64,000 nucleotides of DNA from Bryobacteraceae bacterium. GTDB lineage: Bacteria > Acidobacteriota > Terriglobia > Bryobacterales > Bryobacteraceae. Positions within the stretch are counted from its first letter, which is position 1. Every line of letters starts with the position of its first letter. This document shows, piece by piece, positions 14,256-29,538 of the stretch. The notes under the pieces were generated by a model that worked only from the letters and a program-made list of their open reading frames with translations, did not search any database and had not been told where the DNA came from. The position numbers and the translations under genes were made by a program. The stretch spans positions 1,116,001 to 1,180,000 of the forward strand of contig BPGE01000001.1 of assembly GCA_026002875.1 (NCBI GenBank), in the 5' to 3' direction.

Positions 14256-16175
14256 ATGCGGTTCATAGCGATACAGAGAGTCCAGCGCATGCTGTTGCAG
14301 GCATGGGCCCTGGCCGGAATCATGCCTCTCGCCGCCGCTCCTCCCACATGGTACCGCTTTCAGTCCGGCGAGTGGGAGCTCTGCACGGACGCGGGCGAGC
14401 GGCGCGGCGAGGAAACGCTCCGGCGCCTGATGGAATCATACTCCGTGCTGCGGCAGGCGGCGCCGGAGTTGGCCGGAATCCCCGCCAGCCCTCAACGCCC
14501 CGTCCGGGTGATGCTGTTCCGCTCGGCGCGGGACTTCGCGCCCTTCCGGCGGGGCGAGTCGCACCGCGGGCTGTTTCTTTCTGGTGCGGAGAGACACTGG
14601 ATCCTGGCGCCGGACTCGGGCGGCGACACCCTCCGCGCGCTGAGGCACGAGCTCGTGCACCTGATGCTGCGCCATGCGCTGCCTTCGCCGCCGCCATGGC
14701 TGGAGGAAGGGCTTGCGGATTATTACTCCACAATGGAGATCTCCGGCGGCAGCGTGCGCCTGGGCAAGGCGCCTTCGTCCCATCAACACTGGCTGAAGAA
14801 CGAGGCATGGATGGATGCGGCCCGCCTGTCGGCGCTGCGCCCCGCGGATGACGCCGGCCTGGACAGGCGGACGATCACCGTGTTCTATGCGCAAAGCTGG
14901 GCTCTGGTGCGCTGGATGATGCTCGAAGGCGGGGCGGCGAAGACAGGCGGATTCCTTTCGAAACTCGCTGGAGGACTGAGTCAGGACGCGGCGTTCCGGG
15001 AAGTCTACGGGACCACCATTTCCCAAGCCCTGGAGCGCGCCCGGCTGCTCGCCGAGCGGCTGCCGGACGACGCCGCTCCCGATGTGCGCGCGGCAGGACC
15101 GGGCGCAGCCGCCGCGGCCATCTCGAGGGAACCGTTGCCGCCGCCGGTGCCGGATGTGATGCGCGTGGAAGCGTTGCTCGACGCCGGCAGGGATCGCGAC
15201 GCCGAACGTCTGGGCCGGGAAACGGCCCGCCAGCACCCGTCCAGCGCGGCGGCAGAAACGCTGCTGGGCTCTCTCGCCCTCCGCAGCAGCGACTTTGAAC
15301 GCGCGCGCGGACACCTGGAGCGGGCCATCGCGCTGGGCGGCGCGGGGGCGAGGACGCAGTTCGAATACGCCATGCTGCTGCGGGACATGAAAGGCCCCGA
15401 TGCGCTGATCGAGCAATCCCTGCGGCAGGCCGTGGCCGCGGAGCCGGGATTCAGCGAAGCCTGGCTCGTGCTCGGCAACTGGCTGCTGACCAAAGGCCGC
15501 GCCGCGGATGCAGCGCCCTGCCTGGAGAAAGCGGCCTCGCTCGATCCGCAGCGCAGCGTGGCGTGGGAGGCGTGGGGGCGGGCGCTGCTCCAGCTCGGCG
15601 ACAGGCAGCGCGCGCGGGAGGCCGCTTCGAAAGCGCTCCTGTCGGCCGTCACGCCCGAGCAGAGCGAGATGGCGCGCGCGCTGATGCGCGAGGTCGAGAC
15701 CCGCCCGGCGCAGGCGCCCAAGCCGGCGCCGCCCGTGCAGACTCCGGCAGGATGGCAGCCGCGCGAAGGCGACGCACGCGCCGAGGGGCGGCTGGTGGAG
15801 ATCCGTTGCGAGGATGCCCGGCTGCTGTTCCGCATCGAGGTGAAGCCGCGGACGGCCACGGCGCAGGCTGTCACCGTGCTGCTCGAAACCAGCAGGCCGA
15901 ACCTCGTCATGCTTCGCGGCAAGTCTGAAGGACGCCGTGAATTCATCTGCGGCGAACAGAAGCCGGCGCCGCCGGTTGCGGCCGGCTACGTTGCAGCGCC
16001 GCCGCAGCCGCAGCCCGCTGAAGAGCCGCCTCCGCCTCCTGCACCTGCGCCCAGACAGCCTGCCGCGAAAGCGGGAAAGAAGGCGCCGGCGAAAAAGTCC
16101 GCCCCGCGCCCCGCGCCGCCCAAGCCGAAGCCGGAACCGGTGGCGGGCGAACTGGTGTGGCTCGAATTCCGCTGA
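14256..16175 (+). CDS. Exported protein with HExxH peptidase-like domain and TPR repeats
   Basis: This 639-residue protein begins with a hydrophobic signal (MLLQAWALAGIMPLAAAP). The N-terminal half contains RHELVHLMLRH with H131, E132 and H135, followed by PPWLEEGLADYY. This is the gluzincin arrangement with a likely third ligand at Glu150/151. Residues 300-470 form TPR repeats (AAETLLGSLALRSSDFERAR, AWLVLGNWLLTKGRAADA). The tail (545-635) is rich in Pro/Ala/Lys, with PAKAGKKAPAKK-type repeats, and ends in GELVWLEFR. It may be a periplasmic metallopeptidase or peptidase-like scaffold. The same HExxH plus EEGLA pattern recurs in the SpoIID-like protein at 27078-28403. Confidence 0.75.
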   Translation: MRFIAIQRVQRMLLQAWALAGIMPLAAAPPTWYRFQSGEWELCTDAGERRGEETLRRLMESYSVLRQAAPELAGIPASPQRPVRVMLFRSARDFAPFRRGESHRGLFLSGAERHWILAPDSGGDTLRALRHELVHLMLRHALPSPPPWLEEGLADYYSTMEISGGSVRLGKAPSSHQHWLKNEAWMDAARLSALRPADDAGLDRRTITVFYAQSWALVRWMMLEGGAAKTGGFLSKLAGGLSQDAAFREVYGTTISQALERARLLAERLPDDAAPDVRAAGPGAAAAAISREPLPPPVPDVMRVEALLDAGRDRDAERLGRETARQHPSSAAAETLLGSLALRSSDFERARGHLERAIALGGAGARTQFEYAMLLRDMKGPDALIEQSLRQAVAAEPGFSEAWLVLGNWLLTKGRAADAAPCLEKAASLDPQRSVAWEAWGRALLQLGDRQRAREAASKALLSAVTPEQSEMARALMREVETRPAQAPKPAPPVQTPAGWQPREGDARAEGRLVEIRCEDARLLFRIEVKPRTATAQAVTVLLETSRPNLVMLRGKSEGRREFICGEQKPAPPVAAGYVAAPPQPQPAEEPPPPPAPAPRQPAAKAGKKAPAKKSAPRPAPPKPKPEPVAGELVWLEFR

Positions 16176-20839: not shown

Positions 20840-21475
20840 ATGACGCGGAGAGGCCTTATCGCGGCAGTTGCAGCGGGCGTGTTTCCCAAGCCGGGCGCAG
20901 CCGCTCCGGGAGGAGGCGGGGCGTTCCGGCTGTGGTTCTGCTGGCTGGCCGAGTCGGCGTATTTCATGAAGCGCCTGCCGGCCGAGATCAAAGACTGCTC
21001 CTCGCTGCTGCGATTCGCCTACCGGGAAGCGCTGCGGCCGCATACGGCGGAATGGGCGCGTCAGTGGGGCTATGAGTGGCTGCCGCCTTACCCGGAGCCG
21101 GGGCTGAAGGCGCCGCCGCTGTTCCGGGTCGGAAATGAAGCCCGCCACTTCGCCGACGCCCGGCATCTGATGCGGTTCAACACGCGGAGGATCAGCGGGC
21201 GCGTCGAAGACGCGCATCCGGCGGATCTTCTGTTTTTCCGCGGCGCCGGCGGGGAATCGTGGCACGCCATGGCCTTTCTGGGAGAGAGCCGTTTCGAAAC
21301 GTCGCCGGAAAAATACGTCGTGTATCATACCGGGCCTGAGGGAAAATGGCCGGGCGAGGTGCGGCGGCCTTCGCTGAAGGAATTGCTGGCGCATCCCGAG
21401 CCGCGCTGGCGTCCCGTATCCGGCAACGCACATTTTCTGGGTGTCTTCCGCTGGAATCTGTTGATGGAGGCATGA
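20840..21475 (+). CDS. DUF1175 protein (YfaT-like), exported
   Basis: This 211-residue protein starts with MTRRGLIAAVAAGVF, a short twin-arginine-like signal. Blocks such as FRLWFCWLAESAYF, DCSSLLRFAYREAL, HPADLLFFR, WHAMAFLGES and YVVYHTGP match my recollection of DUF1175/YfaT. That family is encoded beside the alpha-2-macroglobulin YfaS in E. coli and beside MagD in Pseudomonas. Conserved Cys and His residues (DCSS, SWHAM, VYHTG) suggest a papain-like/NlpC-type fold, which is inference. It precedes the macroglobulin gene by 7 bp on the same strand. Its biochemical role is unknown in any species to my knowledge. Confidence 0.82.
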   Translation: MTRRGLIAAVAAGVFPKPGAAAPGGGGAFRLWFCWLAESAYFMKRLPAEIKDCSSLLRFAYREALRPHTAEWARQWGYEWLPPYPEPGLKAPPLFRVGNEARHFADARHLMRFNTRRISGRVEDAHPADLLFFRGAGGESWHAMAFLGESRFETSPEKYVVYHTGPEGKWPGEVRRPSLKELLAHPEPRWRPVSGNAHFLGVFRWNLLMEA

Positions 21476-21482
21476 AGGCAGG

Positions 21483-24400
21483 ATGCGCGCGAAAGTTCTC
21501 GTGGCAGGATTGTTGGCGTTCGCCTTTGCCGCGCCCGCGCAGCTGGAAGAGAGCCGGCCGTATTTCTCGCTCTCGTCGAGCGACACGGTGCTGCCGGGCA
21601 GGACGGTGCAGGTCAACGTTCAGGCGCAGGGTGTCGCCCAGCTGGAATTCCGGCTGTACCGGCTGAGGGATCCGCGGGCTTTTTTCGTCAAGCTCGGCAA
21701 CGTGTCCTCGACGGGTCCGAGGCGGGGGCGGCTGTTCAGCGCGCGGACGCCCATCGAGCGGTTCGACGCCTGGAAGCGGCGGCAATGGGCCCGGCTCAGG
21801 GATCTGGCGCGCATGCAGTTTTCGGAGGAAAACCGCGCCCGCATCCGCGCGTGGATGCAGAAGGATGAGAAGAAGCCGCCCGCTCCGTCCGAGAGAGGGC
21901 CCTCCTATGCCGCCGCGCCGCTGCTGAATCCGGATCTCCTCGTGAAGCGCTGGACCCAGCCGGTCCGGGACACGGGCCGCCTGGATGCGGGCCGCATCCA
22001 TGTGCTGCTGCCGGAACCTGGCGTCTACGTGCTGGAAGCCACCGATCAGGTCCGGCAGGCTTACACGGTGCTTGTGGCGACGCCCCTGGGCGTCATCGTG
22101 AAGGCCTGGCCCGGGCGCGCGGCGGCGCGGGTGGTCGACCGCCTGAGCGGCGAACCGCGGGGCGGGTGCGCGCTGGAACTGCTGGACGCCGGGCGGAACC
22201 TGAGTTTTGGAAAGCGGACGACGAACGCGGAGGGGGCGGCCGAATTCGAGCTGCAGGCCTCGTGGGAGGACGAACTCCTTCTGCTGGCTGACTGCGGCGG
22301 CGTCCTCACGCCGGCCAAAGTGCCCGCCCACGCCGTGGCGCCCCGGTGGGGCGGAGTGGAAGGGGTGGTTCACACGGACCGGCCTGTCTATCGTCCCGGC
22401 CAGAAAGTCCGTTTCCGGGCGATTGTCCGCGAGTCCTTCGACGGGGAGTACCGCACGCCCGAGGCGCGGAAGGCGCGGATTGTGGTGGACGACGGGGAGG
22501 GGAACCCGATTTATCAGAAAACGGTCTCCCTGACGAAATACGGCACGGCCAGCGGGGAGCTGGACCTGGCCGAAGACGCGCCACTGGGCTATTACGGAAT
22601 TTCAGTGAAGCCGGAAGGAAAAGAGAGCGGCGTTTTTGGCGGATTCGAGGTGGAAGAATACCGGAAGCCGGAGTACGAGGTGCGAGTCTATCCCGCCGCG
22701 GCGCGCGCCCTGCAGGGGAGCCGGATGGAGGCACGGATCGAGGCCCGTTACTACTACGGCGAGCCGGTGGCAGGGGCGGAAGTGGAATGGAGTCTGCACC
22801 GGTACCGCTGGTATCCGCCCTGGTGGGACTGGGAAGAGATGGAAGCCGACGCGGATGCGGAAGAAATGTTCGGGGGCGAAGAGGTTTCCTCGGGCGAAGG
22901 CAGGCTGGACGCCGAAGGGAGGCTTGGGATCACCGTCCCGCTGGAGCGCGGACAGCACGATTACCGGTACCGGATCGTGGCGCGCGTGAAAGACGAGGGA
23001 GGGAGGAAGATCGAAGGAGCAGGGTCTTTTCTGGGGACGCGTGCGCCGTTTCTGATCACGGCGCGCCCTGACAAATGGGTCTACCGCAAAGGCGAGACCG
23101 TGAAATGGCGGGTCAACGCTTTCGATTTCGACCAGCAGCCGGTGCCGGCTGTCACGGTCCGCGTGGAGGCCTACCGCGAGACCAAAGGGACTGCCCAGGG
23201 CAGCCCCGTCGAAACCCGCACTGCCGTGACGGGCGCTGACGGCGAGGCCATCGTGGAGTTTTCGCTTCCTTCGAGCGGCGCATGGATCCTGCGTACGACC
23301 GCGCGGGGCGCCGGCAGCGAATTACGGGAAGAGAACTGGATGTGGATCGCCGGCGAGGACAGCGGTTGGAAGCCGCCGGAGCGCGTCCGTCTGGCGCTCG
23401 ACAGGAAGTCCTACGCGCCGGGCGAGACGGCGCGGGTGACGATCATCACGGGCGTGCCGCAGGCCCGGATCTGGCTGGCGGCGGAGGGCGCGGTACTCCA
23501 CTGGTCGAAATTCGTCACCATTGAAGGCGGCGCCGGCACTGTCGAAATTCCTGTGAAGGGAGAGTTTTCTCCGAACGTTTTCATCAGTGCGGTTTTTCTG
23601 TACAAAGACCGGCACTACGAGGGTTCAAAAACCCTGACAGTGCCGCCCGTGGAGAAGCAGATTTTTGTCTCTCTGGAGCCGTCGAAGAAGGAATTCCAGC
23701 CGGGGGAGCCGGCTTCTTTCCGGTTGACGGCGAAGGACCGCGCAGGGAATCCCCTGCGGGCGGAATTCGCGCTTGGGGTCGTAGACGAGGCGATCTACGC
23801 CATCCGGCGCGAGTCTCAGCCGGACCTGCTGAAGGTCTTCTACGGGTACCGCTGGAGCCGCGTGGAGACGGAGACGAGCCAGTCCTTCTCGTTCTGGGGC
23901 GCCTCCGGCACGCGGCGCATCGAACTCGCCCGGGCAGGCCGCCGCCGGTTCGCTGCGCAACTGAAACGTGAAGGGCTGGAGATGCCCCGGGTGCGGAAGA
24001 ACTTCCCGGATACGGCCTTCTGGGTAGCGGATCTGGAGACGGATGCTCAGGGACGCGCGGAAGTGCGCTTCGAGTTCCCCGACTCGCTGACCACCTGGCG
24101 GGCGACGGCGCGCGGAGTGACCGAGGACACGAAAGTGGGCGGGGCGGTCGAGCGGGTGCTGGTGCGAAAAGACGTCGTGGTCTCGCTGGCGGCGCCGCGG
24201 TTCTTCACGGAGGGAGACGAGGCCGTGGTGCCGGTGCTGGCGCGGAATTACACGGACAGGCCGCTGCGTGTCCGGGTCGGATTGCAGGCGCAAGGCCTGG
24301 AGGTGCTCGAGGGACAGGAGATGGAACTCGAGCTGGCTCCGCAAAGCGAAGGCAAGTCCGACTACCGCCTGAAGGCGCAGCAGGCTGGCAAAGCCGTGTT

Positions 24401-26090
24401 GACGGCGAAGGCGGCGGGGCAGGGCAAGGGCGATGCCCTGGAGATCACGGTTCCGGTGCATCCGTACGGCATCCCGATGGAGGCTGCGGCGCAGGCGCGG
24501 CTGGACGGGGCTTCCTCGCGGACCCTGGTGTACGAGTTCCCGCCCGCTGGAGATTCTTCGGGCAGAGCCGCGGAGGTGCGGCTGTCGCCGTCTCTCGGCG
24601 GTGCGCTGCTGGGCGCTCTGGAGTATCTGCTTGAGTATCCCTACGGATGCTCGGAGCAGCTGATGTCAAGCCTGCTGCCCAATCTGGTGGTGGCGGAGGC
24701 GCTGCGCAAGCTGAATCCCGGGACGGCGGTGGACCGCAAGACCCTGGAACGCAACGTCAGAGCCGGACTCGAGAAGCTCTACGGCCAGCAGAACACGGAT
24801 GGCGGCTGGGGCTGGTGGCGCGAGGACGAGAGCTCGCTGTTCCTGACTTCTTACATCCTGCTCGGAATGGGCCACGCAGAAGCCAACGGCTTCGATGTGC
24901 GCACCGATGCCAGGTCGGGGGCGGCGCACTATCTCTCCCAGCAGCTGTCGGACGGCGCAAAGGCTGAAGCGGACCTGCTGGCCTATGCGCTCCTGGCGCT
25001 GGCGCGGAACGGAAGTCTGGAGCCGCCGGTGATCAACGCCGTGTGGCGCAGGCGCGGGGAGCTGACCGGGTTCGGCTGGGCGTCGCTGGGGCTGGCGTTT
25101 CAGGCGATCAACGACGGGCGGCGGCGGGAAGCAGCGGACCGGCTCGCCGCCATGGCGAAACAGGAAGGGGAGGAAATGTTCTGGCCGAGCGGGCGCGATC
25201 TGATGTTCCTCCAGGAGGGCGAGCATACGTTCGAAGCGACGGCCATGGCAGCGCGGTTCCTGGCCATCGAGCGGCCGGAAAGCGGCATGGCGGAGCGCGC
25301 GGCGCAGTGGCTGCTGAATCACCGGGACCGGGGATACTACTGGGGCTCGACCAAGCGCACGGCGTTCGTGATTTATGGATTGATACCGCTGCTGGAGCGC
25401 TCGGGCGAACTGAAGCCGGATCTGACGGTGCGCGTGATGGCGGGAGGGCGCGAGGTTCTCACGCAAAGGTTCACGGCCTCGGACGCGCTGGCGTCGAAGC
25501 CCGTCAAGGTCGTGGTTCCGGTGAGCGGCGCGCGCAGCGAGATCCGGGTGGAGACGGAAGGGCGGGGGCGGCTCTATGCTTCGGTCGTGTGGCGGTGGCG
25601 TCAGACGGAAGCCGGCGAGGCGCGAAGGCTGCCCGATGCCGGAAAGCTGGAAGTGGAGCGGCGCTACTATCGCCTGAGGCGGGTGGAATCGGGAGGCGTG
25701 ATCGAGCATGCTCTGGAGCCGTGGAGCGGACCGGCGCGGCGGGGAGACATCGTCGCCGTGCGCGTGAGCGTGCGCGGCGCAGGATCGAACCGTGCGTTTG
25801 TCATCGAGGATCCCCTGCCCGCTGGCGCCGAGGCCGTGACTCGCGATGAAGCGATCCGTCTGCGTGGCAAGCCCGATTGGTGGCGCTGGTGGATTGGGAG
25901 ACGGGAACTGCGGGACGAGCGCGCCTCGTGGTTCCCCTGGTGGATTCCGGATGCCGGTTACGAGACCGTGTACCTGTTCCGGTTCACCAACGCAGGGAAA
26001 TTCCGCGCGGCGCCGGCCCGCGTGGAGGCCATGTACGAACCCAACGTGAAAGCCTGGAGCGAGGCTGCCGCATGGGAGGTGTTGCCATGA
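21483..26090 (+). CDS. Alpha-2-macroglobulin family protein with intact thioester
   Basis: This 1535-residue periplasmic protein has a signal peptide (cleavage near FAAPAQ) and no lipobox Cys, so it should be soluble rather than a lipoprotein. It contains the macroglobulin beta domains (VEGVVHTDRPVYRPGQKVRF, VYRKGETVKWRVNAFD). The MG7-10/ANA region is seen as FPDTAFWVADLETDAQGRA and FPDSLTTWRATARGVT. The thioester is in YGCSEQLMS (Cys1056, Glu1058, Gln1059) with the following all-helical TED domain (WGWWREDESS, FLTSYILLGMG). Cleavage of a bait region by a foreign protease would expose the thioester and trap the protease. The gene lies between DUF1175 and a small membrane protein in one operon. 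Confidence 0.92.
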   Translation: MRAKVLVAGLLAFAFAAPAQLEESRPYFSLSSSDTVLPGRTVQVNVQAQGVAQLEFRLYRLRDPRAFFVKLGNVSSTGPRRGRLFSARTPIERFDAWKRRQWARLRDLARMQFSEENRARIRAWMQKDEKKPPAPSERGPSYAAAPLLNPDLLVKRWTQPVRDTGRLDAGRIHVLLPEPGVYVLEATDQVRQAYTVLVATPLGVIVKAWPGRAAARVVDRLSGEPRGGCALELLDAGRNLSFGKRTTNAEGAAEFELQASWEDELLLLADCGGVLTPAKVPAHAVAPRWGGVEGVVHTDRPVYRPGQKVRFRAIVRESFDGEYRTPEARKARIVVDDGEGNPIYQKTVSLTKYGTASGELDLAEDAPLGYYGISVKPEGKESGVFGGFEVEEYRKPEYEVRVYPAAARALQGSRMEARIEARYYYGEPVAGAEVEWSLHRYRWYPPWWDWEEMEADADAEEMFGGEEVSSGEGRLDAEGRLGITVPLERGQHDYRYRIVARVKDEGGRKIEGAGSFLGTRAPFLITARPDKWVYRKGETVKWRVNAFDFDQQPVPAVTVRVEAYRETKGTAQGSPVETRTAVTGADGEAIVEFSLPSSGAWILRTTARGAGSELREENWMWIAGEDSGWKPPERVRLALDRKSYAPGETARVTIITGVPQARIWLAAEGAVLHWSKFVTIEGGAGTVEIPVKGEFSPNVFISAVFLYKDRHYEGSKTLTVPPVEKQIFVSLEPSKKEFQPGEPASFRLTAKDRAGNPLRAEFALGVVDEAIYAIRRESQPDLLKVFYGYRWSRVETETSQSFSFWGASGTRRIELARAGRRRFAAQLKREGLEMPRVRKNFPDTAFWVADLETDAQGRAEVRFEFPDSLTTWRATARGVTEDTKVGGAVERVLVRKDVVVSLAAPRFFTEGDEAVVPVLARNYTDRPLRVRVGLQAQGLEVLEGQEMELELAPQSEGKSDYRLKAQQAGKAVLTAKAAGQGKGDALEITVPVHPYGIPMEAAAQARLDGASSRTLVYEFPPAGDSSGRAAEVRLSPSLGGALLGALEYLLEYPYGCSEQLMSSLLPNLVVAEALRKLNPGTAVDRKTLERNVRAGLEKLYGQQNTDGGWGWWREDESSLFLTSYILLGMGHAEANGFDVRTDARSGAAHYLSQQLSDGAKAEADLLAYALLALARNGSLEPPVINAVWRRRGELTGFGWASLGLAFQAINDGRRREAADRLAAMAKQEGEEMFWPSGRDLMFLQEGEHTFEATAMAARFLAIERPESGMAERAAQWLLNHRDRGYYWGSTKRTAFVIYGLIPLLERSGELKPDLTVRVMAGGREVLTQRFTASDALASKPVKVVVPVSGARSEIRVETEGRGRLYASVVWRWRQTEAGEARRLPDAGKLEVERRYYRLRRVESGGVIEHALEPWSGPARRGDIVAVRVSVRGAGSNRAFVIEDPLPAGAEAVTRDEAIRLRGKPDWWRWWIGRRELRDERASWFPWWIPDAGYETVYLFRFTNAGKFRAAPARVEAMYEPNVKAWSEAAAWEVLP

Positions 26091-26569
26091 GAATCTGGAT
26101 GGAAGCCGCGCGCCTGCTGCTGGCGCGATGGAACTGGTGGCTCGTCGTGGCGTGCATGCTGCTGGGCGCGGGCGGGTTCATCGCGCTCTGGCTGCGGGCG
26201 CCGCTGGAATCTGGGCTGGATCTGGCGTTGCTGGCGGGCTACACGCTGTTCGCGCTCGGGTTCCTGGCGCTGGGCCTGTATCTGGCCAGACTCCGGTTCG
26301 CTCCCCATGGCGTGCGGCTGGCGCCTGCGTTGCAACACGCGGAACTCTGGGCTGCGGTGGCGCTCTTTGCGGCGGTATCGGTGTGGCTGCCGTGGCGGCT
26401 GGTCACGTGGGTGCCGCGCTTCGAGACGCTCGCGGCGCAAGCCTGGAGCGCCGGCGTGCGCTTCCTGCTGGCCTGGGCGCTGTTGACGGGCGGCTTCTGC
26501 TGGCTCGTGGCGTGCCTGGGGCTGCTGTCGAGGGAGGAGCGGAATGCAGAAGCGGTACCGGCTCGGTAA
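26087..26569 (+). CDS. Small membrane protein, four predicted helices
   Basis: This 160-residue protein begins at the ATG that overlaps the macroglobulin stop codon (ATGA, 26087-26090), so it is co-translated. Hydrophobic segments are about 14-34 (WWLVVACMLLGAGGFIALWL), 42-64 (LALLAGYTLFALGFLALGLY), 82-100 (LWAAVALFAAVSVWLPW) and 120-142 (LLAWALLTGGFCWLVACLGL). I do not recognise a family. Position suggests a membrane partner or anchor of the macroglobulin. Its 3' end overlaps the macrodomain gene by 26 bp. Confidence 0.7.
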   Translation: MRIWMEAARLLLARWNWWLVVACMLLGAGGFIALWLRAPLESGLDLALLAGYTLFALGFLALGLYLARLRFAPHGVRLAPALQHAELWAAVALFAAVSVWLPWRLVTWVPRFETLAAQAWSAGVRFLLAWALLTGGFCWLVACLGLLSREERNAEAVPAR

Positions 26570-27116
26570 TGGAAGAACGATCCGCCTGGTGGAAGGCGAC
26601 ATCACGCGGATCGCCGCCGATGCCATCGCCAATGCCGCCAACTCTGCGCTGGCGGGCGGCGGGGGCGTCGACGGCGCCATCCACCGCGCGGGCGGGCCCG
26701 AGATCATGCGGGAGCTGGATGAAATCCGGCCTCAGGTGGGGCGCGTGCCGGCGGGGCAGGCGGTTGCGACCGGGGCAGGCAGGCTGCCGGCAAAGTACGT
26801 GTTTCACGCTGTGGGTCCGGTGTACCGGGACGGAAGACACGGCGAGCCCGAGGCTCTGGCATCCTGCTACCGCGTCTGCCTGGAGATGGCGGAAGAGCGC
26901 GGCTGCAGGACGATCAGTTTCCCGGCGATCAGCACAGGCGTCTATGGCTATCCGGCGGAAGAGGCGGCGCGCGTAGCCATCGGCGAAGTCAGGAAGTTCC
27001 TGGAAACGCGCGCGGAAAACGTGAATGAGGTGATCTTCGTGCAGTTCGGGGAGGCGGCGTACGGCGTGTACGAACGGCTACTGGGGCAGTCCGGTCTGGA
27101 GGAACTGCAGGACTGA
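26544..27116 (+). CDS. Macrodomain protein, ADP-ribose/O-acetyl-ADP-ribose hydrolase type (MacroD/YmdB-like)
   Basis: This 190-residue protein is one macrodomain. Its motifs are VEGDITRIAADAIANAANS, the loop GGGGVDGAIHRAGG, and the phosphate-binding loop FPAISTGVYGYPAEEAA. Macrodomains of this class remove ADP-ribose from proteins or nucleic acids, or deacetylate O-acetyl-ADP-ribose. No signal peptide is present, so it acts in the cytoplasm. The 26-bp overlap with the membrane-protein gene ties it to the macroglobulin operon, an unexpected association. Its last 39 bp overlap the convergent SpoIID-like gene. Confidence 0.9.
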   Translation: MQKRYRLGNGRTIRLVEGDITRIAADAIANAANSALAGGGGVDGAIHRAGGPEIMRELDEIRPQVGRVPAGQAVATGAGRLPAKYVFHAVGPVYRDGRHGEPEALASCYRVCLEMAEERGCRTISFPAISTGVYGYPAEEAARVAIGEVRKFLETRAENVNEVIFVQFGEAAYGVYERLLGQSGLEELQD

Positions 27117-28403
27117 GACGAGCCCGTGACGGCGGACGAGCGCCTCCACGCGGGCGCGCTCGGAAGCGCGCGTGGTTCCCCCGGCCAGATATTCGGCGAG
27201 GCCTTCTTCGAACCACTCGGGCAGCGGCGCACGGCGATTCGCCCCGATCAGCACGTGCATCATTTCGTGCAGCAGGACCTGAGCGAGCCTGCCCTGCGAC
27301 TGAAGGCGGACCGGCTGATTCAGATGGATCGTGCAGCCGCGGGTGACGGCGGCGTAGTCGCCGCGCGCGCCGGTCGTGTCGCGGAACAGATCGACCGTTG
27401 GATATTCACGGATGCGCAGACGGCACGAAGCGTTGAGAGAGGAGCGGCGGCGGGCTTCACGCCAGGCTGTTTCTGCCGCGGGCGGAGACAGAACGGGTGG
27501 GCCGCCCGCCGTCCAGAGTTCAACAGATTCTCCCTTGTGGCGCCGCCAGGAAAGCCCCTGCGGCGTGAGTCCGGGCACGGCGCCAGGGAAATAGAAGGCA
27601 AGAATTTCCCTGAAATCAGCTCCGGTTTTGGCCAGTTCGATGGCCCCTTTCTGACACAAACCGGCCCCATGCCCGGCCCCCCGGCCCCGGAACACGGCGG
27701 CCGCCGGGAGGGATTCGACTTCATACAAGCGGCTCCGCAGCAGGTCCCAGCCGAGCATGCGGCCGGCCGCGAGGTGAAAGGACTCCGCGTCCACCGGTCC
27801 CCGGTTCGAGCGCAGCGACAGCACGCGCCCGGAGGCGCTGCGGCGCTCCACGGCGAGAAACCGCACGCCGGAAAGACCGAGCGCTTCCCCGATTTCGGAC
27901 CAGGCAATCCGGGCAGTCCACGAAGGCGAGGGGGAGCGGCGGCACCAGGGATCCTCTTTTGCGGGCAGGTAGGGCCGGGCGAGGCCGGGCCAGATTTCGC
28001 CGGCGGATGCCGTGCTGCCTCCGCAATCCGCGGAGTGAAAAACGAGCGCCGGCGAGCCCCTGTGCCAGAGAATGACGCCTTGCGTTTCCTCCACCGCAAG
28101 TTCGATCAGGCTGGATTTTCCCGAAAAGTCAAGCCGCTGGCAGTGCGTTGTCGTGCAGAAATCAAAGCCATCTTTCCGGTGGCGGCCCGGATTGACGCGG
28201 ATGTAAGTCCGGGCGGCTACGGCCATGGCCTTGAGCGCCTCCACTTGAGAGACGCCGCCCATTTCGCCGGCCACGGCGGCCGCAACTGCGGATTCCACCG
28301 GCAGCCGGGAGATGCCGTCGGGAGTCCGCACGGCAACGGTCTGCGGGGCGGCGGGCAAAGCCAGCGCCAGCAGGACTACAGATGGCCGGAGCGCTTTGCC
28401 CAT
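27078..28403 (-). CDS. SpoIID/LytB-like protein with C-terminal HExxH domain (YfaQ-like)
   Basis: This 441-residue exported protein has a signal peptide MGKALRPSVVLLALALPAAP. The SpoIID domain (about 30-260) has the candidate catalytic Glu47 in VAGEMGGVSQVEALKAMAVA, FDFCTTTHCQ and VFHSADCGGSTASAG. SpoIID-type enzymes are lytic transglycosylases that cut peptidoglycan stripped of stem peptides. The C-terminus carries HEMMH (379-383) and EWFEEGLAEY (396-405), a gluzincin-like site. The ATG at 28403 follows the signal logic; a longer frame is antisense-like sequence. It overlaps the transpeptidase gene by 28 bp. YfaQ (DUF2300), encoded near YfaS in E. coli, is the closest context I recall. Confidence 0.8.
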   Translation of the reverse strand: MGKALRPSVVLLALALPAAPQTVAVRTPDGISRLPVESAVAAAVAGEMGGVSQVEALKAMAVAARTYIRVNPGRHRKDGFDFCTTTHCQRLDFSGKSSLIELAVEETQGVILWHRGSPALVFHSADCGGSTASAGEIWPGLARPYLPAKEDPWCRRSPSPSWTARIAWSEIGEALGLSGVRFLAVERRSASGRVLSLRSNRGPVDAESFHLAAGRMLGWDLLRSRLYEVESLPAAAVFRGRGAGHGAGLCQKGAIELAKTGADFREILAFYFPGAVPGLTPQGLSWRRHKGESVELWTAGGPPVLSPPAAETAWREARRRSSLNASCRLRIREYPTVDLFRDTTGARGDYAAVTRGCTIHLNQPVRLQSQGRLAQVLLHEMMHVLIGANRRAPLPEWFEEGLAEYLAGGTTRASERARVEALVRRHGLVSVLQFLQTGLPQ

Positions 28404-29116
28404 AAGAAAAGTTCCGCGGCGATCGGCGCCGCGCCGCTGGGGCCGCGGGCCGCGGGCTGAAAGACGACGGCGACGACGGCCGGCCTTGAGGCGGGCGCGT
28501 ATCCGGCGAACCACGCACCGTCGCGGCTGGTGCCCGTCTTGCCGGCGACTTCGGTCCCTTCGATGGCTGCGGCCCTCGCCGTTCCTTCCGTCACGGCGCG
28601 GCGGAGGCCGGTACGGACCGTGGCATCCCCCTGCAAAACCAGCAGACGGTATGTGCGCGCGAGGTTCTCCGGCGTGATGGCGACGCGCTCGAGGCCCAGC
28701 GCCTGCAGTTGCAGCTCCTCCGGCGTGCGCGCCTCCATAGCCTCCGCCCCGCACTGAAGAAGGCGCCGGAAGACCGGACGCGCGCCCGCGGCCAGCGCGG
28801 ATGCGGCAAACCAGTGATTGCAGCTCACTGCCAGCGCGGTTTCGGCGTCCAGCGGGGCGTCGAGCGGAACGTGCACGCAATCCAGGTTGCGGCCATCCAG
28901 CCGGAAGCGGCCGGTGCAGGGGCGGCGCTGCCAGGGGCGGAGGGCCTCCAGCAGCCAGGGCTTGATGGAAGAGCCGGGGGCGGCCGCGGTGCTCCGGGCC
29001 GTCGAGGGATTCTCCACGCGCAACATCCTGCCGTCGGAGACACGCAAAACGATGGCCGCGCCGGAAGGCGCAAAACTTGCGGACAAACCGGCGAAAATAG
29101 CGCGCCTGGAAATCAT
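28376..29116 (-). CDS. Minimal penicillin-binding transpeptidase domain protein, exported
   Basis: This 246-residue protein contains all three penicillin-binding motifs in order: SSIK (49-52), SCN (98-100) and KTGT (193-196). It is therefore a serine acyl-enzyme of the D,D-transpeptidase/carboxypeptidase class. It lacks the dimerisation and glycosyltransferase domains of normal class A or B PBPs, being barely longer than the catalytic core. The N-terminus MISRRAIFAGLSASFAPSG resembles a twin-arginine signal. Its ATG overlaps the thioesterase stop by 4 bp, and its 3' end overlaps the SpoIID-like gene. Together with SpoIID it could cross-link or trim peptidoglycan; a beta-lactam sensor is another reading. 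Confidence 0.85.
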   Translation of the reverse strand: MISRRAIFAGLSASFAPSGAAIVLRVSDGRMLRVENPSTARSTAAAPGSSIKPWLLEALRPWQRRPCTGRFRLDGRNLDCVHVPLDAPLDAETALAVSCNHWFAASALAAGARPVFRRLLQCGAEAMEARTPEELQLQALGLERVAITPENLARTYRLLVLQGDATVRTGLRRAVTEGTARAAAIEGTEVAGKTGTSRDGAWFAGYAPASRPAVVAVVFQPAARGPSGAAPIAAELFLWAKRSGHL

Positions 29117-29538
29117 GAAAGTCCGAAAATGGGCCGGTATTCTTCCGGAATCTTCACCGGTTTCCCGCTGTTGACAAACAGGTGCCGGGTCTGGCCGGTC
29201 GCCAGCAGCGCGCCGTCGGCGGCGCGGCGGATTTCGTAGGCGAACGTGACCATCCGGGGGTGGGCGCTCTCGAGCCGCGCCGAGGCGAGGATTTCGTCAT
29301 CGTAGCGCGCGGGCTGGAGGTAACGGCAGCAGGCTTCAGCCACCACCAGATGCAGTCCGCTGCGCTGCTCCATCTCGCGGTAGCTGATGCCGCGGAGCCG
29401 GCACAGTTCGGTGCGCGCCATTTCCATCCAGACGAGGTAGTTGGCGTGATAGACGACGCCCATCTGATCCGTCTCCGCGTAACGGACGCGGAAGCGGACC
29501 TCGGAGCGTTCCACGGGCGGACTGGTCATGCTTTTCAT
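29113..29538 (-). CDS. Acyl-CoA thioesterase, YbgC/4-hydroxybenzoyl-CoA type
   Basis: This 141-residue hotdog-fold protein has the catalytic region RYAETDQMGVVYHANYLVW (Asp and His), MEMARTELCR and HPRMVTFAYEI. YbgC-type enzymes hydrolyse short-chain acyl-CoA and in proteobacteria are linked to the Tol-Pal envelope system. It is the first gene of a three-gene minus-strand operon with the transpeptidase and SpoIID-like protein, joined by a 4-bp overlap. It may simply be a housekeeping enzyme, but an envelope-linked operon echoes the Tol-Pal association. The start ATG at 29538 could alternatively be the Met four codons in (MTSPPV). Confidence 0.88.
   Translation of the reverse strand: MKSMTSPPVERSEVRFRVRYAETDQMGVVYHANYLVWMEMARTELCRLRGISYREMEQRSGLHLVVAEACCRYLQPARYDDEILASARLESAHPRMVTFAYEIRRAADGALLATGQTRHLFVNSGKPVKIPEEYRPIFGLS

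Follow-up and report, generated by a model that had tools for sequence, protein, structure and literature searches.

Bacterial alpha-2-macroglobulins (A2Ms) have been reported in a simple pattern, thioester A2Ms occurring with PBP1C and thioester-less A2Ms with Mag partners, so what kind of system is it when a thioester A2M stands directly beside a DUF1175 gene? This question is raised by a locus of a Bryobacteraceae bacterium at positions 20840-29538 of the 64-kb stretch of DNA analysed here (the window, C1:1116001-1180000 of a 4.86 Mb genome, G000), which breaks the reported pattern. Judged by its gene content and motifs, the locus is a Yfa/Mag-type set in which the penicillin-binding protein (PBP) and the SpoIID protein are unfused and keep intact motifs, and whose A2M has a thioester; the unusual point is this thioester A2M within a Mag-type gene set. 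We consider it likely that these genes form a Yfa/Mag-type A2M system that is linked to peptidoglycan, includes a dedicated peptidase domain and serves the protection of the envelope in the periplasm. What the Yfa/Mag macroglobulin operons do is poorly understood, and the Acidobacteriota set offers a way to test it.

Genes of the locus and their relation to YfaQ

The locus is made of two convergent units, with the DUF1175, A2M, membrane-protein and macrodomain genes on the plus strand and the thioesterase, PBP and SpoIID genes on the minus strand, neighbouring genes in each unit overlapping or almost abutting. This layout of seven genes had been given by the original prediction and was borne out by the open reading frames (ORFs, taken from stop to stop) and by Pfam, NF and TIGR profile matches. 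The A2M gene (21483..26090, plus strand) encodes a signal-peptide-like N terminus and the domains MG2, BRD, A2M, TED and bMG10, all over the Pfam cut-off. Its CSEQ thioester codons (24648..24659, plus strand, residues 1056-1059) belong to the motif YGCSEQ, which starts at residue 1054, and the pattern [YW]GC[TVS]EQ is present in 87 of 87 rows, namely the window and 86 ORFs longer than 1400 aa, duplicate genomes included. A thioester A2M is predicted from the CxEQ in the TED domain together with the MG2 and bait-region domains. Assignment to the type II A2Ms, which are marked by the lack of CxEQ (PMC5764988), was considered and fails, given the YGCSEQ of the window and the CxEQ of all 87 rows.

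Directly ahead, the DUF1175 gene (20840..21475, plus strand) matches PF06672 at 162 bits against a cut-off of 27 and encodes an NlpC/P60-like protein of the YfaT/MagC family with a signal-like N-terminal segment, its profile matching MagC (PDB 7bk8) at 8e-57. The putative triad C53, H142 and H163 is kept in 25, 26 and 25 of 27 aligned rows, respectively, and as a whole in 24, the exceptions being a truncated row (L054), a degenerate copy (L051) and a His-to-Asp exchange (L038). This Cys-His-His triad fits NlpC/P60, suggesting a putative enzyme.

The convergent SpoIID gene (27078..28403, minus strand) matches PF08486 at 56 bits and TIGR02669 at 146 bits against 83, in agreement with the SpoIID-like protein of the original prediction, which was incomplete in overlooking a C-terminal HExxH...E domain. 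The last third of the gene carries this motif as LHEMMH...EWFEEG, the HEMMH codons (residues 379-383) lying at 27255..27269 on the minus strand, and the domain gives weak Pfam matches to SprT-like and Peptidase_MA_2. The AlphaFold model of the whole protein (mean pLDDT 90.4) matches the SpoIID structures 5i1t and 4rwr, from C. difficile and B. anthracis, at 2e-16, and the M1, M61 and collagenase peptidases weakly, at about 1e-3. In an alignment of the window protein with 32 of 51 suitable homologues, H379, E380, H383 and E400 are invariant in all 33 chosen rows, as are the GHG (GHGxGL-Q-type residues) and two Cys of the SpoIID part; moreover, the HExxH...E pattern is present in 68 of 69 homologues longer than 400 aa, E. 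coli YfaQ being the exception. The SpoIID fold and motifs are therefore those of a predicted lytic transglycosylase, while the HExxH and downstream Glu fit a predicted gluzincin metallopeptidase, for which the fold match is weak. Elsewhere in the window, at 14256-16175, a TPR-like protein has an HExxH...E motif of its own (HELVH...WLEEG) and, by eye, resembles the HExxH domain of the SpoIID gene.

The adjoining PBP gene (28376..29116, minus strand) encodes a transpeptidase-only protein of 246 aa (PF00905) with the motifs S49xxK52, S98-C-N100 and K193-T-G195, confirming the minimal PBP that had been proposed. The SxxK, SCN and KTG residues do not vary among the 32 rows chosen for alignment, which are the window and 31 of 48 suitable homologues, and among 61 homologues PGSxxK was matched in 60, SCN in 61 and a KTG-type motif in 61. 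The structural model (mean pLDDT 94.5) has PBP3/FtsI as its best PDB matches, at 4e-12, and a transpeptidase is predicted from the three motifs. A PBP1C context was rejected, as the protein is transpeptidase-only and the PBP1C-type domain BiPBP_C (PF06832) gave no match at an E-value of 0.001 in this genome. Directly behind the A2M, a further gene (26087..26569, plus strand) encodes a membrane protein with four hydrophobic segments (4-TM) and no Pfam match, a possible A2M anchor.

The relation of the PBP and SpoIID proteins to the Yfa operon is indicated by YfaQ, as the E. coli protein matches Pfam SpoIID at 27 bits, over the cut-off of 23. When compared with a profile built from two YfaQ sequences (E. 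coli and Citrobacter), the PBP profile aligns over residues 49-221 (E 2e-5, probability 77%), as does the SpoIID profile over residues 318-394 (E 3e-8, 95%), and against E. coli YfaQ alone the values are 6e-4 (29%, score 34.3) and 6e-7 (92%, score 57.9), respectively, each E-value standing for one comparison and not for a database-wide search. Controls comprising 60 shuffled YfaQ sequences, the reverse sequence and five further proteins encoded at that E. coli locus gave scores of 22.5 or less. The YfaQ sites in register with SxxK, SCN and KTG are SLWK, SCG and KTW, and a weak collinear tail of the SpoIID alignment reaches the HEYLH of YfaQ (E 0.007). A transpeptidase-like half and a SpoIID-like half of YfaQ are already in print, in the available portion of PMC12282094, where the delta-yfaQ profile also connects to mepS, mepK, nlpI and other envelope mutants. 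The Pfam DUF2300 model, that of YfaQ, found nothing over the cut-off in this genome, and a search by sequence for solved structures of YfaQ found none. The original prediction had seen elements of both macroglobulin contexts joined at this locus, which did not hold, as the PBP is not PBP1C and PBP-like and SpoIID parts already make up the YfaQ of the Yfa operon. A DUF1175 gene that adjoins an A2M gene, with apparently YfaQ-like parts nearby as two genes, is what marks the locus as Yfa/Mag-type.

Co-occurrence in relatives, other families and Deinococcota

DUF1175 was present in 27 of the 101 genomes searched, that of the window included, and the surroundings of the other 26 were fetched, together with 80 loci from GTDB contigs. 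These 80 are the best of 440 relatives; 79 carry titles of Acidobacteriota groups, and the remaining one that of Verrucomicrobia. Once duplicates had been merged, the set came to 94 distinct DUF1175 loci (loci are numbered L here, and genomes G), of which 65 have at least 8 kb downstream, many contigs being short draft pieces. Within these 65 long-flank loci, a same-strand A2M follows DUF1175 in 63 and a membrane-protein profile match stands behind the A2M in 46, while SpoIID is present and convergent in 55 and PBP in 53. Six of the ten loci without SpoIID have a searchable genome, and a strong SpoIID-HExxH match was found on another contig in five of them (G057, G016, G027, G019 and G025), G087 giving a weak one only. 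Across the 101 genomes, A2M and SpoIID are shared by 26 (1 and 2 unshared; Fisher p 1e-20), A2M and PBP by 25 (2 and 2 unshared; p 4e-19) and DUF1175 and SpoIID by 24 (3 and 4 unshared; p 5e-16), the strong matches for A2M, SpoIID, PBP and DUF1175 coinciding at p values from 8e-15 to 1e-20, which overstate independence because the genomes are related, and which depend on strong-match thresholds set by hand after the E-values had been seen. In one relative (G055, locus L149), SpoIID-HExxH and membrane genes are still convergent, with no A2M or DUF1175 found there, giving a remnant-like picture.

The sampling was extended to 297 Acidobacteriota genomes, 38 of which have DUF1175, that of the window included, and 21 of the other 37 were fetched. 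A CxEQ A2M adjoins DUF1175 in all 21 of these loci of other families, and PBP, SpoIID and HExxH are linked in 20, being fused, split or permuted. A single PBP-SpoIID-HExxH protein lies nearby in 12, in the same direction in eight and convergent in four; in the eight loci of family f33, HExxH precedes SpoIID within the protein, and a short PBP-like protein (PMGSLAK, SCN, KTGT) stands ahead, separate in seven and fused in L188. The HExxH profile matches six of these eight proteins; in L186 and L189 the domain is recognised only by its HELTH motif, which a second segment of the SpoIID-profile match surrounds. The fused protein of G152 is on the same contig as DUF1175, at a distance of about 31 kb. 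Regarding the 16 unfetched genomes, coordinates place a convergent SpoIID within about 7 kb in four members of family f11 and on another contig in one more. Six further PBP-SpoIID fusions were seen in relatives (L144-L148 and L157); HExxH is present in five, the sixth (L147) being cut off where its contig ends. Strict motifs are missed in single fusions, namely SxxK in L181, SxN in L172, L175, L178 and L199, KTG in L199 and all of them in L177. The f33 operons seemingly have an extra secreted protein between the A2M and the PBP; two of these proteins (in L186 and L187) were scanned and gave no Pfam match.

Outside the phylum, a plasmid search with YfaT returned 12 records, five of them from Deinococcota. 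In three of these five loci, DUF1175 and a thioester A2M (YGC[ST]EQ) are followed, directly behind the A2M, by a stand-alone HExxH gene, whose product of about 200 aa is annotated as hypothetical, matches the HExxH profile at E-values from 2e-18 to 2e-22 and keeps the HExxH; PBP and SpoIID were not detected near the A2M in these three loci. On two Deinococcus plasmids (L141 and L143), DUF1175 lies directly behind an anhydro-N-acetylmuramic acid kinase gene, of peptidoglycan recycling. Taken as comparisons of gene order and motifs, these surveys show DUF1175, the thioester A2M, PBP, SpoIID and the HExxH domain as a unit that stays together across rearrangement.

The original prediction had expected the co-occurrence around DUF1175 in Acidobacteriota to take in the macrodomain as well, and while this stood strongly for A2M, SpoIID(-HExxH) and PBP, it failed for the macrodomain and the thioesterase. 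The macrodomain gene (26544..27116, plus strand), of the O-acetyl-ADP-ribose deacetylase family, is over the cut-off of NF001664, and the YbgC/FadM-type acyl-CoA thioesterase gene (29113..29538, minus strand) is over that of TIGR00051. Both stand beside the locus in only six of the 94 loci, all six within the 65 with long flanks, so they were rejected as members of the system; a macrodomain was found beside five of the 26 loci from relatives' genomes and one of the 80 from GTDB contigs. Those six loci are the four of four fetched congeners of the window's genus, G050 and L125. The genes next in line (MoaD/E, vWA, IMPase and phosphorylase) are also kept in the congeners and in G050, only MoaD/E being seen in L125, near the end of the stretch. 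As these housekeeping neighbours are kept likewise in the same clade, the macrodomain and thioesterase behave as expected of passengers, and the macrodomain is probably not part of the system.

Bait region, proposed mechanism and alternatives

The bait of A2M inhibitors is usually variable. The bait of the window's A2M, which we take to lie at about residues 795-832 (23865..23978, plus strand) from the bait-thioester distance of known A2Ms and from the unmatched stretch between the Pfam domains BRD and A2M, is conserved in both sequence and length. Between positions 781 and 846 of the window protein, its length is nearly constant over the 87 rows, at 64-72 residues, many of them invariant. The mean pairwise identity of the bait is 0.45 in 20 diverse rows, whereas 11 paralogous A2Ms from the same relatives reach 0.23, a comparison in which gap columns count as mismatches and so penalise most of the paralogue baits, which have long inserts, in which L167 is truncated, and from which L168 and L169 (nearer to the system A2M, with baits of 137-143 aa) and L166 (no ORF of at least 900 aa) were left out. 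The other domains of the system A2M have identities from 0.41 to 0.57, near the 0.45 of the bait. The domains flanking the bait are similar in the system and in the paralogues (MG7 0.57 against 0.59; BRD 0.43 against 0.45); the control is imperfect, in that MG10 (0.47 against 0.27) and TED (0.51 against 0.41) are also less conserved in paralogues. A hypervariable bait had been sought as the sign of a broad trap, and the opposite was found. As the bait is conserved as much as its neighbouring domains, dedicated cleavage is suggested, that is, one dedicated protease, perhaps the co-encoded one.

A second A2M family of the same relatives (L158-L165, L167 and L171) has baits of 326-457 aa, apparently with inserted domains. 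In another locus (L170, on C10 of G095), the A2M adjoins a 779-aa ORF with a PBP-profile match, which is a PBP1C-like context; the same genome also has a degenerate DUF1175 (L051) and an unlinked thioester A2M in a 2012-aa ORF (L168).

In the peptidoglycan-linked system that we favour, the 4-TM protein would anchor the A2M to the inner membrane, and the DUF1175 protein would provide the contact with the wall by binding or trimming peptidoglycan stem peptides. A specific cut in the conserved bait would then open the A2M and expose its thioester, which could bond covalently to a nearby nucleophile, either an attacking protease or amines of the peptidoglycan and envelope. As the dedicated enzyme that cleaves the bait, the HExxH peptidase is the foremost candidate, or else it may be a partner controlled by the A2M, and SpoIID, by glycan cleavage, and the PBP, by cross-linking, may remodel or patch the wall at that site. 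This detailed order of events is put forward tentatively and may well prove different. A bolder extension, which we regard as speculative and rather improbable, would make the locus a complement-like cassette: a dedicated secreted metallopeptidase would cut the conserved bait, the thioester A2M would bond covalently to peptidoglycan of the cell itself or, at the wall, to an intruder, SpoIID, NlpC/P60 and PBP would open and reseal the marked spot, and Proteobacteria would have, in their Yfa/Mag operons, side branches of the cassette that are reduced and without a thioester.

Alternatively, and in line with the original prediction, the A2M could be a broad-spectrum protease trap coupled to wall repair, whose bait is cut by any invading protease, which is then caught by the thioester, with PBP and SpoIID mending the wall and the HExxH domain incidental. 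The thioester motif in all 87 rows is consistent with such a trap, as are, in PMC5764988, the same idea for A2M-PBP1C pairs and the trapping of a protease by MagD; we nevertheless think it unlikely, because a bait conserved in sequence and length, unlike that of the paralogous A2Ms, points to something more specific, and because the HExxH gene stands behind the A2M in Deinococcota loci with no PBP or SpoIID detected nearby. The A2M could also act as a safety device that holds or marks the system's own hydrolases (the HExxH peptidase, NlpC/P60 and SpoIID) and so confines their action to places of envelope damage, with no defence against outside proteases. Most surveyed loci co-encode one A2M with several potentially self-harmful periplasmic hydrolases, which speaks for this role; it is nevertheless improbable, since in PMC5764988 MagD bound MagA, MagB and MagF but could not be shown to form stable complexes with either MagC or MagE. 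Neighbourhood inertia, whereby envelope genes that have nothing to do with one another would have stayed neighbours through chance or common descent and share no function, describes the macrodomain, the thioesterase and the downstream housekeeping genes, mere neighbours persisting within a clade, and is a very poor explanation of the core, which is kept together across the phylum's families despite splitting, fusion, permutation and changes of orientation and domain order, with HExxH appearing again in Deinococcota.

Several observations weigh against a peptidoglycan-linked Yfa/Mag-type system with a dedicated peptidase, besides the single-comparison nature of the YfaQ E-values. No biochemical or expression data on these genes were found. 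Regarding gene content, G055 keeps SpoIID-HExxH and the membrane gene with no A2M match, G058 has a PBP-SpoIID fusion without a close A2M, G009 has the PBP alone, and G087 and G095 have DUF1175 without a close A2M, while G015 has DUF1175 and A2M with no strong SpoIID match, its contig stopping just past the A2M. On the two Deinococcus plasmids, DUF1175 has no A2M within about 12 kb. In seven genomes of other families (L192-L198), SpoIID-HExxH occurs without DUF1175, A2M or PBP matches in the fetched stretch, and the HExxH motif is lost in three of them (L196-L198), indicating that this domain pair also has another life. As for the link with YfaQ, an earlier, shallower PBP profile matched the single YfaQ sequence weakly (E 0.01, probability 4%), and the HExxH profile gives no significant match to the C-terminal HEYLH of YfaQ (HMM E 0.05-0.12). 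In addition, DUF1175 is called inactive and peptidoglycan-binding in the accessible text of a 2023 paper (PMC10318531), and MagE was earlier placed in the cytoplasm, not stably in the complex, by the Pseudomonas authors (PMC5764988, in the portion available), a poor fit with a periplasmic enzyme. Still, the conserved bait and the peptidase domain beside the A2M in Acidobacteriota and Deinococcota lead to a directly testable idea of what triggers the A2M.

Comparison with Yfa, Mag and other macroglobulin systems

The Yfa operon of E. coli, yfaA-T-S-Q-P, is alike in that an A2M (YfaS, a pseudogene by the K-12 annotation) and YfaQ stand beside DUF1175 (YfaT), and its order DUF1175 - A2M - YfaQ resembles that of the Acidobacteriota loci with a same-strand PBP-SpoIID-HExxH fusion. 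It differs in that no CxEQ is present in the Citrobacter A2M or the YfaS piece examined, that YfaQ is one divergent protein, with SCG and KTW in place of SCN and KTG, whereas the window has separate PBP and SpoIID genes, and that the window has a 4-TM protein. DUF2138 (YfaA) and DUF2135 (YfaP) gave no Pfam match in the seven locus genes and the upstream gene, to which this search was confined rather than genome-wide.

The MagABCDEF system of Pseudomonas aeruginosa is alike in that DUF1175 corresponds to MagC by its profile match to 7bk8 and adjoins the A2M, whereas MagD, a type II A2M, is without a thioester, as stated in the available part of PMC5764988; no counterpart of MagA, MagB or MagF was identified at the window locus. 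MagE occupies the place of YfaQ by gene order only. In the same paper, loss of MagE disturbs the processing of MagD, and MagE is proposed as a chaperone or as an aid to signal-peptide processing. If MagE is the counterpart of YfaQ, the same part is present in Acidobacteriota as two apparently intact enzymes encoded apart, namely a transpeptidase and a SpoIID protein that carries a metallopeptidase-like domain.

The arrangement described here was not found in print in the open-licence literature, although older remarks could exist. In the same literature, nothing was found for DUF2300 or for macroglobulin with Acidobacteria and penicillin-binding, and SpoIID with alpha-2-macroglobulin led only to a cyanobacterial proteome. 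The present analysis adds the thioester, the HExxH domain, the occurrence of that domain as a gene of its own, and the connection of YfaQ with unfused genes whose motifs are intact.

The type I A2Ms that pair with PBP1C (YfhM/PbpC; Sa-A2M) share with the window a thioester A2M and a PBP in the neighbourhood, whereas the partners here are DUF1175 and SpoIID-HExxH, and the PBP is a transpeptidase-only protein of 246 aa. The SpoIID of Bacillus and Clostridioides is alike in fold (E 2e-16), the window protein differing by its fused gluzincin-like domain. Complement C3 and the thioester proteins offer an analogy in how the system may work, in that a thioester protein has a conserved stretch for cleavage and there is a candidate for its dedicated protease, which in the present locus would be the HExxH domain.

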